A stretch of 64,000 nucleotides of DNA, from the IMG/VR virus record IMGVR_UViG_3300022752_000015, positions 124,001 through 188,000 of that record. One strand, written 5' to 3'. Position 1 is the stretch's first letter. Each line of letters starts with the position of its first letter. The position numbers and the translations under genes were made by a program. The DNA comes from a virus. A model generated the notes under the pieces. The model worked only from the letters and a program-made list of their open reading frames with translations, made no database searches and had not been told where the DNA came from. This document shows, in pieces, positions 32,907 through 39,027 of this stretch.

Positions 32907-33045
32907 GATTTACCTCTTTAAATTCTCTGAAGAATTATAATTAATTCTATAAGTAAATTGATCTAAATTTATAGATTTAGAACTAAGATTTAGTAAATTA
33001 TAAATCTTAATCTTAGAAAAAATAATAACGTTTAGGAGGATGTAT
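32907..33045. promoter_or_regulatory. Divergent control region between leftward and rightward operons, with inverted repeats
   Basis: A very AT-rich gap between divergent genes. It holds CTAAAT-TTATAG-ATTTAG (32963-32980), and a 9-bp perfect inverted repeat TAAGATTTA (32984-32992)/TAAATCTTA (33001-33009). AGATTTAG also recurs as a direct repeat at 32973 and 32986. On the minus strand a TATAAT lies at 32939-32934. On the plus strand TATAAATC (32999-33006) is one base off the T4 late promoter core TATAAATA. An SD AGGAGG sits at 33034-33039. The repeats could be an operator governing both directions. Confidence 0.6.
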
Positions 33046-33648
33046 ATGTCGAGAAAAAAATCTAACACTCAAGTAAGTTCTCCAAATTTTCCTGATAAAC
33101 ATCTTGACATCAAAGATTCTCCTGACAGCATTGAAACAAAAAAGACGTTGGATGCTATTGAAAGCAATAGACAGCAGATTTTAGAGATGCAAAAAAGAAT
33201 CTTATCGGCTCCTGCTATGAATGGTGGCTTCTCTAATTTAATGTACAAAATTGAAAAAATAGAGCAATCGCAAACGCAGTTGGTTGTGAAAGTCGATGAG
33301 ATAAGAGAAGTCTTATATGATCCTGATAATGGTTTATACGCAAGAATAAAAAACGTTGAAAATAGTTCAGCTGAAATTGAAAGAGTTGAAGAGTTGGAAG
33401 AACAACTACATTCCATACAAAGCTGGAAAATTCATGAAGAAAAATTAGCTCAAAAAGAAGAGCTCAATGATGAAAATCTTGCAAAGATTATAAATCAACA
33501 TTCTGAGGTAATTAAAGAATTACAGTCTTGGTACCAAAAACAAGCAGCTTTTACTAGATGGCTTTCAATTGCAGTAGGTACAGCAATCTTAGGTGCTATT
33601 GGTAAGATAATACATGCTTACATCAATTCTCATGTTCAAATTATTTGA
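33046..33648 (+). CDS. Coiled-coil protein with C-terminal membrane anchor
   Basis: A 200-residue protein. The ATG at 33046 is preferred because the AGGAGG at 33034 is then 6 bases away; the earlier ATG at 33040 abuts it. Residues 35-160 are helical with heptad-like runs (SNRQQILEMQKRI, EIERVEELEEQLHS). The last 25 residues, WLSIAVGTAILGAIGKIIHA, are a C-terminal membrane segment, so the protein is probably tail-anchored with the coiled coil in the cytoplasm. A central DPDNGLYARIKNVE motif recurs, as I recall it, in other phage hypotheticals. No enzymatic motif. It precedes the chaperonin-like gene with a 4-base overlap. Confidence 0.75.
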   Translation: MSRKKSNTQVSSPNFPDKHLDIKDSPDSIETKKTLDAIESNRQQILEMQKRILSAPAMNGGFSNLMYKIEKIEQSQTQLVVKVDEIREVLYDPDNGLYARIKNVENSSAEIERVEELEEQLHSIQSWKIHEEKLAQKEELNDENLAKIINQHSEVIKELQSWYQKQAAFTRWLSIAVGTAILGAIGKIIHAYINSHVQII

Positions 33649-34874
33649 ACATTAAACAAATAATTGGCTACATTGATTTTGTGGCAATTTTTCTAAAAAA
33701 AGAAATACTTGAATCATTTAAAGAAGTCTGTAATGATTTAAGAAATTTTTCAAATACAGAAAAAGTATTATTCCTTGAAAAAGATCAAGTTTTGATTAAA
33801 ACTTCATTTCAAGGAATTTTTAATTTAAAATATTCTAATCAGCTAAAATTAGCTATTCATAGGTTGATAGTAGAACACTGCATTTTATCAGAAAAAATAT
33901 CTCCTGGAGGGTTTGACTTAACATTACATAAAATTGTAAGTTCTGATTTAAACAATCTAGATAAAGCTTCAAATAAAGCTACTTTGAATGATTTAAAAAA
34001 TATAATTGTTTCTCAAACTAAAGACGATGACTTTCTGAACAAAATGTTATTTGATGCCGTGCTTTTAGCTGGATTTGGCGGTAGAATATCTGTAGAAAAA
34101 TCCAGTAATAATTTTGCTTCGATTGAAGTGATTGATGGTTTCACATTTAAAGTAAAAACTTTTGAAGAAAAACCTATCAAAATAGCAAATCCTAAAATCA
34201 TTGTTATTGATGGATTTGTTGAATCTGTTTCTGAAATTAATTTATTGCTTGAAGGTGCAAGTGTAACAAAGCATCCTGTAGTCTTAATAACTAGAGGACT
34301 TCATGAAGAAGTACTAAATACGATAAAAGTTAATAAAATTAGAGGAGTTATTGAAGTTTATCCTATCGTAGTAGAGTTTAATCTAGAAGGTATAAATAAG
34401 CTTAACGACATCTCAATAGCTTGTTCTACATCTTTGTTTTCTAGCAATTTAGGCCAGCTAATTTCTAACATTTCTATAGATGATGCAAAAAAAATAGATG
34501 AAATTTCTATTTATGTTAATTCAATTTGCATAAAGAATCAAGCATCAAAATCTGATGTTAATTCTCATATAAAATTCTTATTGTCTAAAAGAGAAGAATC
34601 AAAAAATGTAGAAGAAATTTACGAAGATAGAATAAGATCTTTATCTTCCAATAATGTACTCATTAGACTTCCAGATACTAACGATTTTGTTGTAAAAAGA
34701 CAATCAATTGACTATTGTCTTAGGTCGATAAAATCTATGATAGAATTTGGAGTATTAAATGATTCTAAACCTTATGGATCTTATGTCTCTTCTAATTTAT
34801 ATTCTAAATTGTTTTTTGAAAAATTAAGTTCATTAGGTGCAGTAATACATAACTCTGCCATTATGTCATACTAG
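33645..34874 (+). CDS. Degenerate GroEL-like chaperonin (apical and intermediate domains), ATPase motifs missing
   Basis: A 409-residue protein with clear type-I chaperonin order from about residue 110: DAVLLAGFGGRISVEKS, VIDGFTFKVKTF, NPKIIVIDG, INLLLEGASVTKHPVVLI, EEVLNTIKVNKIRGVIEVYP, KLNDISIACST and EIYEDRIRSLSSNNVLIRLP. These align with GroEL apical/intermediate segments such as VVN-x-x-RG and LEDIAILTGG, and hydrophobic helix positions of the apical groove are kept. The GDGTTT nucleotide loop is absent and the region matching GroEL Asp398 reads QSIDYCL with Tyr at that place, so ATP hydrolysis is unlikely. The usual length is about 545. The likely start is a TTG at 33645, overlapping the previous TGA. 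Confidence 0.7.
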   Translation: MNIKQIIGYIDFVAIFLKKEILESFKEVCNDLRNFSNTEKVLFLEKDQVLIKTSFQGIFNLKYSNQLKLAIHRLIVEHCILSEKISPGGFDLTLHKIVSSDLNNLDKASNKATLNDLKNIIVSQTKDDDFLNKMLFDAVLLAGFGGRISVEKSSNNFASIEVIDGFTFKVKTFEEKPIKIANPKIIVIDGFVESVSEINLLLEGASVTKHPVVLITRGLHEEVLNTIKVNKIRGVIEVYPIVVEFNLEGINKLNDISIACSTSLFSSNLGQLISNISIDDAKKIDEISIYVNSICIKNQASKSDVNSHIKFLLSKREESKNVEEIYEDRIRSLSSNNVLIRLPDTNDFVVKRQSIDYCLRSIKSMIEFGVLNDSKPYGSYVSSNLYSKLFFEKLSSLGAVIHNSAIMSY

Positions 34875-35676
34875 CAAGTATTGCAGCTAGATCATCTTTA
34901 TCAGAAAGTTCAAACCCAAATTTTTCTTTGAATTTTTCATTAAACTTTCTTATATCTTGTTCGTTTGCTCCCTTAAAGATATCTTTAATCTTTACATCAG
35001 GTGTGGCAGGTGTTGGTGGACCACCAGGGGGTGTTGGTGGAGCTGGCGGTTCACTTTCTTGTACTTTTCCTGCAAAAGCGTTTAATGACTTAACTGGCAT
35101 GTTTACAAACTCATCAACTAGACGAGTTATATCAAAAGGAATTTCTAGCTTTTCAGGATTAAGAACTTTAATTTCAGAATTAAAAGAAGAAGTTAAAGCA
35201 GATTTGAACTTTTTATATTCATTAGGAAAAAGTTCTGTCATCTTTTTGCTAACTCTGTTACCGGTTTTACTGTCTTCTAATTCTTTTTTTAGAATATCTT
35301 CATAATCTCTTATAGATGCTCCTGCCTCTGAAATATCTTTTATTACATTATGAAATCCCACAAAAATTCTTTGTAGTTTTTTTATGCCTTCTATTGCTGC
35401 CGCTTCATCCTTAGGTTTTAAAGAACCTGATTGAATTTTTTCTAGATACTCAAATTGTTTGTCTCGAGCTTTTTCTAAAAAACCTTTGATGGCAGTAGAA
35501 CTTATACCTTCGCTGGTTAAAGCATCCAGATATATTTTTGATTGTTTATTAACAGCTCCAGCGAATTTTATAAATTGTTTTTTTTCTTTTTCAGATATCT
35601 CTTTTAGAACCTTAGATTCTAATAAAGCGATTTTTAACGCTACGATATCTTCATTAACTTTGTTTACTTCACTCAT
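34861..35676 (-). CDS. Helical protein with a Pro-rich linker, unknown function
   Basis: A 271-residue protein. Residues 1-190 are charged and helical (EISEKEKKQFIKFAGAVNKQ). Residues about 210-230 form a Pro-rich linker (PPAPPTPPGGPPTPATP), and a short C-terminal domain follows (NEQDIRKFNEKFKEKFGFEL) that looks like a small helical module. Its 3' end overlaps that of the chaperonin-like gene by 14 bases (convergent). Only 21 bases separate its start from the divergent gene at 35698. It could be a structural or scaffold protein. No known family is recognised. Confidence 0.75.
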   Translation of the reverse strand: MSEVNKVNEDIVALKIALLESKVLKEISEKEKKQFIKFAGAVNKQSKIYLDALTSEGISSTAIKGFLEKARDKQFEYLEKIQSGSLKPKDEAAAIEGIKKLQRIFVGFHNVIKDISEAGASIRDYEDILKKELEDSKTGNRVSKKMTELFPNEYKKFKSALTSSFNSEIKVLNPEKLEIPFDITRLVDEFVNMPVKSLNAFAGKVQESEPPAPPTPPGGPPTPATPDVKIKDIFKGANEQDIRKFNEKFKEKFGFELSDKDDLAAILASMT

Positions 35677-35697: not shown

Positions 35698-35940
35698 ATG
35701 TTAAACAAGAATAAAGTAAGCAAATTAACTTGGGATTTTTTTGAAGTTACAAAAGAAATCGCCAAGAGAAATTTAGTCACGGCTGTCAACACAAAGCAAA
35801 TTGACGTAAATGAAAGCTTACTACCTGCTATTTTAGGGCTTATTGATGCGTCAGTTAATGAAGGATTCAATAAAGGCCACAATAATTTCTTAAATGCTTT
35901 ATCAAACATGACTGAAGAACAGCCAAAGAAAAAAAAATAG
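35698..35940 (+). CDS. Small protein, unknown function
   Basis: An 80-residue basic protein (MLNKNKVSKLTWDFFEVTKE) ending in KKKK. It looks helical, with no Cys or membrane segment. No SD precedes the ATG. A weak promoter-like pair (TTTACT, then TATATC after 17 bases) ends 6 bases before the start, so a leaderless mRNA is possible. It lies 21 bases from the divergent Pro-rich gene and 6 bases before the zinc protein. Confidence 0.65.
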   Translation: MLNKNKVSKLTWDFFEVTKEIAKRNLVTAVNTKQIDVNESLLPAILGLIDASVNEGFNKGHNNFLNALSNMTEEQPKKKK

Positions 35941-35946
35941 TAGATC

Positions 35947-36462
35947 ATGAAGAAAAGAAAAGCCCAAATCCAGGATTCTGGAACAAGCTTAAAAGAATCT
36001 TTTGGACAAAAGCATCTAATAAAATGTAGATGCATTTTGCCGCAAATGAAAAACACTGCAAATCCTGCTCCTCATTGTTTTGTGGTTTTTTCTGAAGTAT
36101 TTGAAGGTCAAATAAAACCTAAATTTTCTCAATGTAATAACTGCGGAGTGGTTCACAAGGTTGTTGACATATGCTCTTCGGAAATAATGAGTGGAAAAGA
36201 TGCAATGAGTTCTATTATGACTATAGACGACATTAGATCTTCCATGAACAAAAGCTTATCTTCGATATTAGATAGACACAATTGTGATTTACCTACTTGG
36301 GAGTTTGCTCAATACGTTGTTGAGAATAAAAGATGGGGAGAAATTGTCGTATTATCTACTGACGTAGAAAAAGAAGATAAAATTATAAAATACGTTAGAA
36401 TTTTAGGCGATTCATTGTTCAAAGTAGATTCTCACATAAGAAAAGAAACATTAGGTGAGTAA
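35947..36462 (+). CDS. Probable zinc-binding protein, unknown function
   Basis: A 171-residue protein. KCRCILPQ, NPAPHCFVVF and SQCNNCGVVHKVVDIC give pairs of Cys (C-x-C, C-x2-C) and His, enough for a zinc ribbon in residues 25-75. The remaining sequence is a mixed helix/strand domain (PTWEFAQYVVENKRWGEIVV). No nuclease or kinase motif is visible. It lies between the small basic protein and the 79-residue gene in a plus-strand run that continues to clpP and the helicase, so an early-gene regulatory or DNA-binding role is possible. Confidence 0.7.
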   Translation: MKKRKAQIQDSGTSLKESFGQKHLIKCRCILPQMKNTANPAPHCFVVFSEVFEGQIKPKFSQCNNCGVVHKVVDICSSEIMSGKDAMSSIMTIDDIRSSMNKSLSSILDRHNCDLPTWEFAQYVVENKRWGEIVVLSTDVEKEDKIIKYVRILGDSLFKVDSHIRKETLGE

Positions 36463-36463
36463 T

Positions 36464-36703
36464 ATGCAAACTTTTGGTAAGCTTTCTTCTGAAAAATTAG
36501 CAGAGGAAAATGAAGAATGTCGAAAGATCGTAAAAGAAATTTTGAATGTAGGTCTTACGCAAAGGCAACAAATGTTCCTTATTTATTTACTTTCTCTTGA
36601 ATTAGAGAATATAGAATATGTAAAAGACCTGACAGAAGTGATTAAAGAAATTGCAGGAGACGATATTTTTGTCTCAAGGAGCGATGATGGGAAGATCAAT
36701 TAA
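36464..36703 (+). CDS. Small helical protein upstream of clpP, unknown function
   Basis: A 79-residue protein. The ATG at 36464 has AGGTGAG a few bases upstream and is preferred to the in-frame GTG at 36455. Helices such as KLAEENEECRKIVKEILNVG and RQQMFLIYLLSLELENIEYV have amphipathic spacing. The last 17 bases overlap the start of the clpP-like gene. It may form a small helical bundle or act as a regulator. No known domain. Confidence 0.65.
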   Translation: MQTFGKLSSEKLAEENEECRKIVKEILNVGLTQRQQMFLIYLLSLELENIEYVKDLTEVIKEIAGDDIFVSRSDDGKIN

Positions 36704-37301
36704 CGTAAAAACTCCGTTTACAACAAAAAATAAAACCGGCGATCATGATGAAGCTGAATTAGCAGCTTTGCTCCCTCATCCAAAACATGGAGAAGATTCT
36801 AGAATCGTAGTATTATACGGAGGGGTCAGCGAACAATCAATTTCCGCAGTAATCTATCAGCTCTTGTATTTAGCAAATCAAAACCACAAACCAATTCATC
36901 TAGTGGTTTCTACTTACGGAGGATCTGTAGATGAAATGTTTTCGCTTTATGATACCATCAGATTTTTGCCATGTCCTGTCCATACCATAGCGTTGGGCAA
37001 AGTAATGTCAGCAGGCGTGCTACTATTAGCTTCTGGTGTGAAAGGTAAACGTTTAATCGGGTCATCAGCAAGACTTATGATGCATCCTATATCAGGTGGT
37101 TTTTACGGTAACGTTTTTGAATCTATGAGTGAAACTAACGAATTCAAAAGGTTGCAAGAATTGATGGTTTCATCTCTTCAAAAAGAATCCAACATGACAA
37201 AGGAGCAAGTCGAAAAAATCATGAAATCTGGACATGATTTTTATGTGACTCCTGAAGAAGCAATCAAATTAGGCATCGTGGATAAAATTATTGGTGCATA
37301 A
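36687..37301 (+). CDS. clpP: ClpP-like serine peptidase
   Basis: A 204-residue ClpP. The ATG at 36687 follows AAGGAG by 5 bases; the ATG at 36684 and an upstream in-frame start at 36651 are less likely. The catalytic triad is complete: Ser108 in GKVMSAGVLLLASG, His133 in RLMMHPISGG, and Asp184 in SGHDFYVTPEEAIKLGIVDK. ClpP forms barrel-shaped proteolytic chambers that need a Clp ATPase to feed them. None is encoded in the window, so it may use host ClpA/X or act alone, for example in head maturation. Neighbours are early genes rather than capsid genes. Confidence 0.92.
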   Translation: MGRSINVKTPFTTKNKTGDHDEAELAALLPHPKHGEDSRIVVLYGGVSEQSISAVIYQLLYLANQNHKPIHLVVSTYGGSVDEMFSLYDTIRFLPCPVHTIALGKVMSAGVLLLASGVKGKRLIGSSARLMMHPISGGFYGNVFESMSETNEFKRLQELMVSSLQKESNMTKEQVEKIMKSGHDFYVTPEEAIKLGIVDKIIGA

Positions 37302-37371: not shown

Positions 37372-39027
37372 ATGAAAAAAATCTCTATTGAAGATTGGAA
37401 AATGTATTTTCCATTCGATAAGATTCGCAAAGAGCAAGAAGTCGCAATTAACTTTGCTTTAAACTCTTTCTTAAACGAAAATAAGAAGTATGTAATCTTA
37501 GAGCTAGGCACTGGCGTGGGTAAATCCGCAACAGGAATTACAATTGCTAGATACATGGAAAATCATGCTCCGATTTCAATTGGAGAGAATGGTGATCGTT
37601 TGGTTGGTTCTTACGTGGTTACAACGCAAAAAATTCTTCAAGAGCAGTATCTAAGAGACTTTGGCCCAAGTTGTGGGAAGAACCTTGTCAAATCTATAAA
37701 ATCTTCCAGCAACTATATGTGTTCTTTTTATTCAGATCAAACGTGCGCTGAATCTAAAAGAATCTTGATGAATTTAGGAAAACAGTTAAATGGAACTGAT
37801 TTTCAAAAAAACTGTAAAACTAATTGCAAGTATTCTATAGAAAAGCAAGAATTTATAGATTCTTCTATCGCTGTTACTAATTTTCCTTATCTTCTTGCAG
37901 AATCTACTTATGCAGGGAAATTAGAACCTAGAGCTATGCTTATCGTAGACGAAGCTCACAATGCTGAAACTGAGCTCGGAAAATTCATTGAGATTACTTT
38001 TTCAGAAAAATTTGCTAGAGACATTCTAAAGTGTAAGTCTCCAAAATCAGAATCTCAATCTGCTATTTTTGAATGGATTAATTCAACTTACAAAAAAGCT
38101 TTGTTGAAACATATTAAAGAAGTAGAAAAGGCTCTAGAAAAACTTAGTAATGATATTGAAGGATATGGCAATTTTTCAAAGCAATATGAGATTTTAGATA
38201 AACATGTGTGTAAAATCAATCGATTTACAGAAGTCTATAAACCTGAAAATTGGATCATGAACGTAGCTTTACCTTCATACGATAACAAGAAGGCAGGTAA
38301 AAAATTCGAATTTAAACCAATTGATGTTTCACCTTATGCATATTCAAGTTTTTTTAGATTAGGAAATAGAGTGTTGCTAATGTCTGCAACAATTGTCAAC
38401 AAAGAGATTTTTTCTCGATCTATAGGCATCGAAGAGAAAGATGTTTCTTATCTTTCTATACCTTCTCCATTTCCTGTAGAAAACAGACCTGTTCATTTTT
38501 TGCCTGTAGGATCTATGTCAAAATCGACGATTGATTCTACGCTACCAAAAATGGTAGAAGTTGTAAAATTGTTGCTAGAAAAGCATCCTCAAGAAAAAGG
38601 AATCATTCATTGTACTAATTTCAAAGTAGCAAAATACATCAAAGAGAATGTAGATTCTAATAGGTTAGTGCTTCATGATTCAAGCAATAGAGAAGAAATG
38701 CTAAAGTTTCATGTCAATAGCAAAGATCCAACTGTATTAGTCAGCCCTTCTATGATGGAAGGAGTAGACTTACATGATGATTTAAGTCGTTTTCAAATTA
38801 TATGCAAGATTCCTTTCCCTTATCTAGGAGACTTGGTCGTAAAAAAGAGAATGGAAAAAAACAAGTTTTGGTATCCTTATATGACAGCCAAATCAATAAT
38901 CCAATCTTTAGGTAGATCAATTAGGAATGAAAGTGACCATGCAATCTCTTACATATTAGATTCTGATTGGGAAAAGTTTTTTCGAATGAACAGAACGTTA
39001 TTTGACGAGACATTTAAAATTTTTTAA
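37372..39027 (+). CDS. DinG/XPD-type superfamily 2 iron-sulfur helicase
   Basis: A 551-residue helicase. The Walker A is LGTGVGKSATG (about residue 46). Between it and the Walker B/DEAH box (LIVDEAHNAE) lie four Cys in YMC, TCAE and NCKTNC, spaced as in the 4Fe-4S domain of XPD/DinG. LLMSATIVN and VLVSPSMMEGVDLHDDLSRF are motifs III and V, and QSLGRSIRNESDHAISYILD is motif VI. Such enzymes unwind DNA or R-loops 5'-3'. It follows clpP after a 70-base gap with a strong hairpin. Confidence 0.9.
   Translation: MKKISIEDWKMYFPFDKIRKEQEVAINFALNSFLNENKKYVILELGTGVGKSATGITIARYMENHAPISIGENGDRLVGSYVVTTQKILQEQYLRDFGPSCGKNLVKSIKSSSNYMCSFYSDQTCAESKRILMNLGKQLNGTDFQKNCKTNCKYSIEKQEFIDSSIAVTNFPYLLAESTYAGKLEPRAMLIVDEAHNAETELGKFIEITFSEKFARDILKCKSPKSESQSAIFEWINSTYKKALLKHIKEVEKALEKLSNDIEGYGNFSKQYEILDKHVCKINRFTEVYKPENWIMNVALPSYDNKKAGKKFEFKPIDVSPYAYSSFFRLGNRVLLMSATIVNKEIFSRSIGIEEKDVSYLSIPSPFPVENRPVHFLPVGSMSKSTIDSTLPKMVEVVKLLLEKHPQEKGIIHCTNFKVAKYIKENVDSNRLVLHDSSNREEMLKFHVNSKDPTVLVSPSMMEGVDLHDDLSRFQIICKIPFPYLGDLVVKKRMEKNKFWYPYMTAKSIIQSLGRSIRNESDHAISYILDSDWEKFFRMNRTLFDETFKIF

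Follow-up and report, generated by a model that had tools for sequence, protein, structure and literature searches.

Chaperonins are usually treated as ATP machines, and several giant phages encode chaperonins of their own. The chaperonin of phage EL is an active ATPase that forms rings and does not use the GroES of E. coli (PMC7185714), and that of AR9 has been solved as a single ring (PMC9598537); like the chaperonin of OBP, both are full-length. In a survey of jumbo phages, HSP60 and HSP10 were found in different phages (PMC7824862). Diverged paralogues are also known from cells, and the following are the closest cases that we found of such proteins alongside intact chaperonins. Chlamydial GroEL2 and GroEL3 (NF038369, NF038370) occur beside an intact GroEL and are reported to differ from it in the GroES- and ATP-binding regions (PMC1892554), and the eukaryotic proteins MKKS, BBS10 and BBS12 are diverged chaperonins in which the ATP-hydrolysis motifs have been substituted or lost and the ATP-binding Gly-Pro is conserved (PMC2846930). 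The BBS/MKKS proteins belong to group II and have the full three-domain length. They act in BBSome assembly.

Here we describe a short chaperonin-like gene in a 64,000-nt window of viral DNA (positions 124001 to 188000 in the 212,804-bp record of an uncultured virus). Its product shares the three-domain fold of group I GroEL/Cpn60 (PF00118, TIGR02348), but has no ATP site, an equatorial domain about 100 residues shorter and altered groove residues. Giant phages are the source of this protein as well, yet unlike the EL/AR9 type it has only 397 aa and no ATP motifs; a second, full-length GroEL found in related phages fits that type by sequence, and an EL/AR9-type role would fall to this companion. 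The chlamydial paralogues likewise stand beside an intact GroEL, but they are full-length (profiles of 506-533 positions) with an undeleted equatorial core, as are in length all the divergent prokaryotic paralogues that we found for comparison, and the BBS/MKKS proteins are related to the short family only at the superfamily level. In the open-licence papers searched, we found no earlier account of a chaperonin, prokaryotic or viral, that has been stripped of its ATPase core. In this family, the engine has been removed and the binding end has been kept under selection.

Chaperonin fold and loss of the ATP site

A preliminary description of this DNA had proposed a degenerate GroEL-like chaperonin, and the resemblance proved to lie well beyond chance. 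The window protein matched the PHROG family "chaperonin groEL" (E = 1.3e-20), a single-sequence phmmer search against the PDB aligned residues 102-371 (2e-13), and a family profile built from 38 relatives retrieved Thermus GroEL from the PDB (E = 2.4e-29). The chlamydial GroEL3 model also matched (8.7e-12), and the NCBIfam GroEL model gave 56.7 bits against a cut-off of 582. Pfam returned no match for the window protein, and its PF00118 model recognised only one of the 38 family members and missed the other 37; similar genes are therefore likely to be labelled hypothetical.

Structure prediction with AlphaFold2 and the family alignment (pLDDT 88, pTM 0.72; single chains only, as for all models here) yielded a chaperonin fold that includes the apical domain. 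The top Foldseek match was GroEL (E = 6e-26), and the nearest shapes were GroES-bound GroEL conformers (TM-score 0.67). The intermediate and apical domains could be aligned to GroEL along their whole length, and Asn265, Asp291 and Arg368 are invariant both in GroEL and in the short family. As modelled, the protein has the three domains of a chaperonin, the equatorial one shrunken and the apical one re-tooled. Relative to GroEL, the intermediate segments retain about 55 of 57 and 30 of 32 residues and the apical domain 176 of 186, while the two equatorial segments retain 95 of 132 and 36 of 115 (a complete domain has about 247); about 100 equatorial residues are deleted. By alignment and model, the N-terminal equatorial remnant (33681..33965, plus strand, as are all features given below unless stated; about residues 1-95) corresponds to GroEL 2-133, and the C-terminal remnant (34746..34871) consists of one helix and the last strand, some 42 residues replacing 115.

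The ATP motifs of GroEL are LGPKG, ITKDG, GDGTT and GGG (PMC3268035), and none of them is present in the 39 aligned members of the short family, from which Asp52, Asp87, GDGTTT, Asp398 and the GGG of Gly414-416 are gone. The absence of GDGTTT noted in the preliminary description was borne out in the window protein, and no GDG[TS] occurs in any of 69 distinct relatives, all of which share the loss; it is not a peculiarity of one genome. Likewise, the position of the catalytic Asp398 is indeed occupied by tyrosine: Tyr345 (34713..34715) lies within an ungapped stretch and adjoins an invariant Asp344 that corresponds to Glu397. Across the family this position is mostly Tyr, Arg, Glu, Asn or Ser, against Asp in 15 of 15 full GroELs, and the Asp52 position is mostly Thr, Arg or Ser.

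No shift of the alignment brought the ATP loop back. The longer relatives L137 and L131 place SPGGF (residues 74-78; 33900..33914) at the position of GDGTT, with SPGG itself at 74-77, and L137 (468 aa) has AGADPAST opposite the AGDGTTT of GroEL. A profile alignment gave another register, in which SPGG falls on GroEL "NPLALKRG" and GDGTTT on helix residues; L137 and L131 disfavour it, and both registers lack the motif. The model of L137 (pLDDT 85, pTM 0.80) has three successive helices at GroEL helices C, D and E, whereas the short members have a shortened helix D and no helix E. The longer family members (468-509 aa) are already ATP-dead by sequence. L137 and L129 (509 aa) look like intermediates and suggest a stepwise reduction in which the ATP site was lost first, an order read from present-day sequences rather than from a rooted reconstruction. 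This large and conserved phage family thus likely preserves, in its longer ATP-dead members, a record of the path of reduction. The sequence, the model and the shared loss in 69 relatives give good support to the earlier proposal of a protein without its own ATP cycle, and an ATP-driven cycle in the short chaperonin is very unlikely.

Apical domain

The apical domain (34134..34655, about residues 152-325) is the best conserved part of the family. Within it, the helix H/helix I region (34221..34343, residues 181-221) carries the invariant residues E181, E185, R205, T214 and N218; D177 and G178 are also invariant, and G206 and R221 nearly so. We compared pairwise identities in five genomes that encode both proteins. 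The short proteins reached 0.21 in the N-terminal equatorial segment and 0.43 in the apical domain, whereas the full GroELs of the same genomes reached 0.56 and 0.57, respectively. Judged from these alignments, the weight of conservation and selection in the short family has moved off the ATPase domain and onto the apical domain.

What is conserved differs from the canonical binding site. The preliminary description held that the hydrophobic apical groove had been kept, and this did not stand up. We compared eight of the client- and GroES-binding residues of GroEL (listed in PMC3268035 and PMC3514286) across 39 members, namely Tyr199, Tyr203, Phe204, Leu234, Leu237, Leu259, Val263 and Val264, and only Leu237 and Val264 are retained family-wide. 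The Tyr199 stretch is deleted in all 39, Phe204 is mostly lost and Leu259 is mixed. The Leu234 position is His in 30 members and Asn in nine, and the Val263 position is Lys in 28, Ser in four and Arg in three; in the window protein these are N187 (His in most relatives) and K216. The conserved polar residues may form a docking site for a dedicated ligand, to which the start of helix H would contribute E181, E185 and the His/Asn at the Leu234 position, and helix I would contribute R205, the Lys at the Val263 position, N218 and R221.

Relatives, gene start and locus

Scans that used the helicase and PhoH genes as anchors, together with a family-alignment scan, recovered 69 distinct relatives in uncultured jumbo phages, mostly of 370-430 aa. 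Intact open reading frames were found in 68 of these, and the remaining one ends at a contig edge. The family-alignment scan of bacterial and archaeal genomes found no cellular relative, and a central family member used as query found no close relative in 50,697 annotated phage records. In annotated phages the window protein had only GroEL-like matches at about 20-25% identity, and those inspected were full-length. Purifying selection acts on the gene (dN/dS 0.13 against its nearest relative, L001).

The open reading frame at 33645-34874 is present as described earlier, but its reading from TTG 33645 as a protein of 409 aa probably needs correction. When two near relatives (88% identical) were compared, a one-base indel was found just 5′ of the aligned GTG at 33681. 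The bases before this GTG thus appear to be non-coding, which makes GTG 33681 the probable start and 397 aa the probable length (33681..34874). The TTG itself probably forms the first bases of a −35 hexamer, TTGAAC (33645-33650), in a promoter-like site (33645..33674) with an 18-bp spacer and a −10 element, TACATT (33669-33674). The GTG lies 6 nt downstream of the −10 element, a leaderless arrangement. Of 39 relatives, 35 have a TAnnnT pattern 4-10 nt 5′ of the short-chaperonin start and no Shine-Dalgarno sequence, against a shuffled rate of 26% for the pattern; at a strict spacing of 5-7 nt, the pattern occurs in 28 of 38 loci against 4.5 expected by chance. It also precedes the helicase gene (16 of 38) and an 86-aa gene (14 of 28), whereas the ClpP gene shows it in none of 38 loci and has a Shine-Dalgarno sequence in 32 of 38. 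These patterns suggest leaderless transcription of the short chaperonin by the host polymerase. The apparently leaderless, sigma70-like promoter points to early synthesis, the promoter call being a match to a consensus whose −10 element alone is found in 26% of shuffled sequence. In many of the 38 related loci, leaderless-type promoters (a −10 box some 6 nt from the start codon and no Shine-Dalgarno sequence) stand before three genes of the block, in the window at 33645-33683, upstream of 35698 and upstream of 37372, with the Shine-Dalgarno-bearing ClpP gene in between.

The gene order is nearly fixed in 38 representative loci, with some members absent or replaced in single loci: a glycosyltransferase on the minus strand, a coiled-coil protein, the short chaperonin, a small protein, a Cys-rich protein, an 82-aa protein, ClpP, the helicase and PhoH. 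In the window, the coiled-coil partner gene with a C-terminal hydrophobic helix (33040..33648) is syntenic in 36 of 38 loci, and the small protein of 80 aa (35698..35940), whose start is leaderless-type in relatives too, and a 171-aa protein with invariant Cys and His residues (35947..36462) are also syntenic. The ClpP-like protease (36651..37301) and the Rad3-like DNA helicase (37372..39027) are present in all 38 loci. Two conserved open reading frames of 327 and 829 aa follow PhoH and matched nothing in PHROGs, Pfam or annotated phages. Profile searches of the PDB and PHROGs gave nothing convincing for the coiled-coil and Cys-rich neighbours, and a defence library search gave no meaningful match. 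Weak holin/hemolysin matches were seen for the coiled-coil gene.

Divergence along the block is uneven. The ClpP-like protease of the window (36651-37301) has 100% protein identity with that of a sister phage and the helicase is nearly identical. Identity falls to 88% in the short chaperonin, and the gene at 34861-35676 has a dN/dS of 0.23. Recombination or a very different constraint along the block is possible.

Companion GroEL and the role of the short protein

A full-length GroEL is encoded together with the short protein in all seven short-protein records of at least 240 kb, and beside it in two smaller ones (G006, 205 kb; G011, 191 kb). The background rate is 245 GroEL matches at E < 1e-10 in 50,697 annotated phage records, although the co-occurrence is drawn from one phage clade and could reflect simple shared ancestry. 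The companion GroELs examined have the ATP loop, Asp398 and GGG (the loop reads GDGTST in G013). We found no full GroEL in the window's own 212.8-kb record, which also lacks the neighbourhood where the sister phage carries its full GroEL (L149:1408-3030); the record may therefore be a fragment. In a tree of the shared region, the short family forms one clade with 100% support on a long stem and falls, on a very long branch, outside the clade of most of these phages' GroELs. Long-branch effects leave the origin of the family uncertain in this tree. In a related phage, whose record yielded no short chaperonin, we observed a 593-aa GroEL with intact ATP motifs and a strongly diverged apical domain (L157:1399-3180).

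A search with Pfam Cpn10 found no GroES in 15 records, whereas 11 of 14 control genomes were positive. A phage GroEL with no recognisable GroES makes GroES-free working testable with two genes of one genome. Immediately 5′ of the phage GroEL, at the place of groES in bacteria, we observed a conserved open reading frame of 93-110 aa (L149:1036-1368, and in the same place in L150, L152, L153, L154 and L156); it has no Cpn10 match and, by eye, looks helical and unlike GroES. Just downstream of the full-length GroEL, an 83-aa open reading frame (L149:3790-4041) resembles translation initiation factor IF-1 by eye.

We consider it fairly probable that the short protein is an ATP-independent binding protein of chaperonin fold and has a conserved polar site of its own; it may be a partner of the phage GroEL. 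We infer that such a reduced group I chaperonin would work by binding rather than by folding, its apical domain recognising a dedicated ligand. In GroEL, neighbouring subunits are joined by a strand at the N-terminus, the stem-loop hairpin, and the final helix and strand. All of these are kept in the model, so the short chaperonin may still oligomerise; the hairpin, however, is modelled less confidently (pLDDT about 72) and does not appear in the model of L137, which leaves ring formation uncertain.

As partner we tentatively favour the phage's own GroEL, with the short chaperonin as part of a hetero-ring or as a regulator; the complete GroEL encoded by most of these phages would be a more natural partner than the host GroEL named in the preliminary description. 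An oligomer that stands alone and holds one particular phage or host protein, or serves as its scaffold, is about as likely. Holding a client, or making a contact of the GroES kind, would call for the groove, and the groove is altered in the short family. A more specific arrangement, which we regard as rather unlikely, is a two-part system without GroES, in which the full GroEL would supply the ATPase cycle and its ring would be joined or covered by the short, ATP-dead protein. The short protein would then be a specificity subunit or a built-in lid, and the pair a phage hetero-oligomeric group I chaperonin whose second subunit lacks the ATPase core.

A role in the virion or its assembly, as a scaffold, holding protein or minor structural part of heads or tails independent of GroEL, seems improbable. 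The 327- and 829-aa proteins encoded after PhoH could be structural, the PHROGs match of the ClpP-like neighbour is to a head maturation protease, and in Vibrio phage phiKT1024 a full chaperonin gene lies between the tail sheath and tail tube genes. The short chaperonin, however, has a protease, a helicase and PhoH as its immediate neighbours, the two large open reading frames are without any match in the databases searched, and a start preceded by a sigma70-like promoter suggests that the gene is expressed early.

That apparent early promoter would also suit a host-directed decoy, a poisoned subunit that would bind GroEL or GroES of the host and block or divert it during takeover, for which we see a similarly small chance. 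The protein does resemble a chaperonin subunit without its ATPase, and it invariably carries Asn265, whose mutation in GroEL blocks GroES binding (PMC3514286). Yet of the three GroES contacts that the same work lists, Leu234 has been replaced in the short family, which also has mostly Lys at Val263, the neighbour of Val264, and has lost the Tyr199 stretch. The diversity of the family also probably reflects many hosts, and matching the ring of each would be demanding.

A decaying pseudogene, or a recent relic left when a phage GroEL was duplicated, which the large deletions and the loss of every catalytic motif might suggest, was rejected as highly improbable on the basis of the low dN/dS and the 68 of 69 relatives that are intact, and the well-supported, long-stemmed clade does not join that of the phage GroELs.
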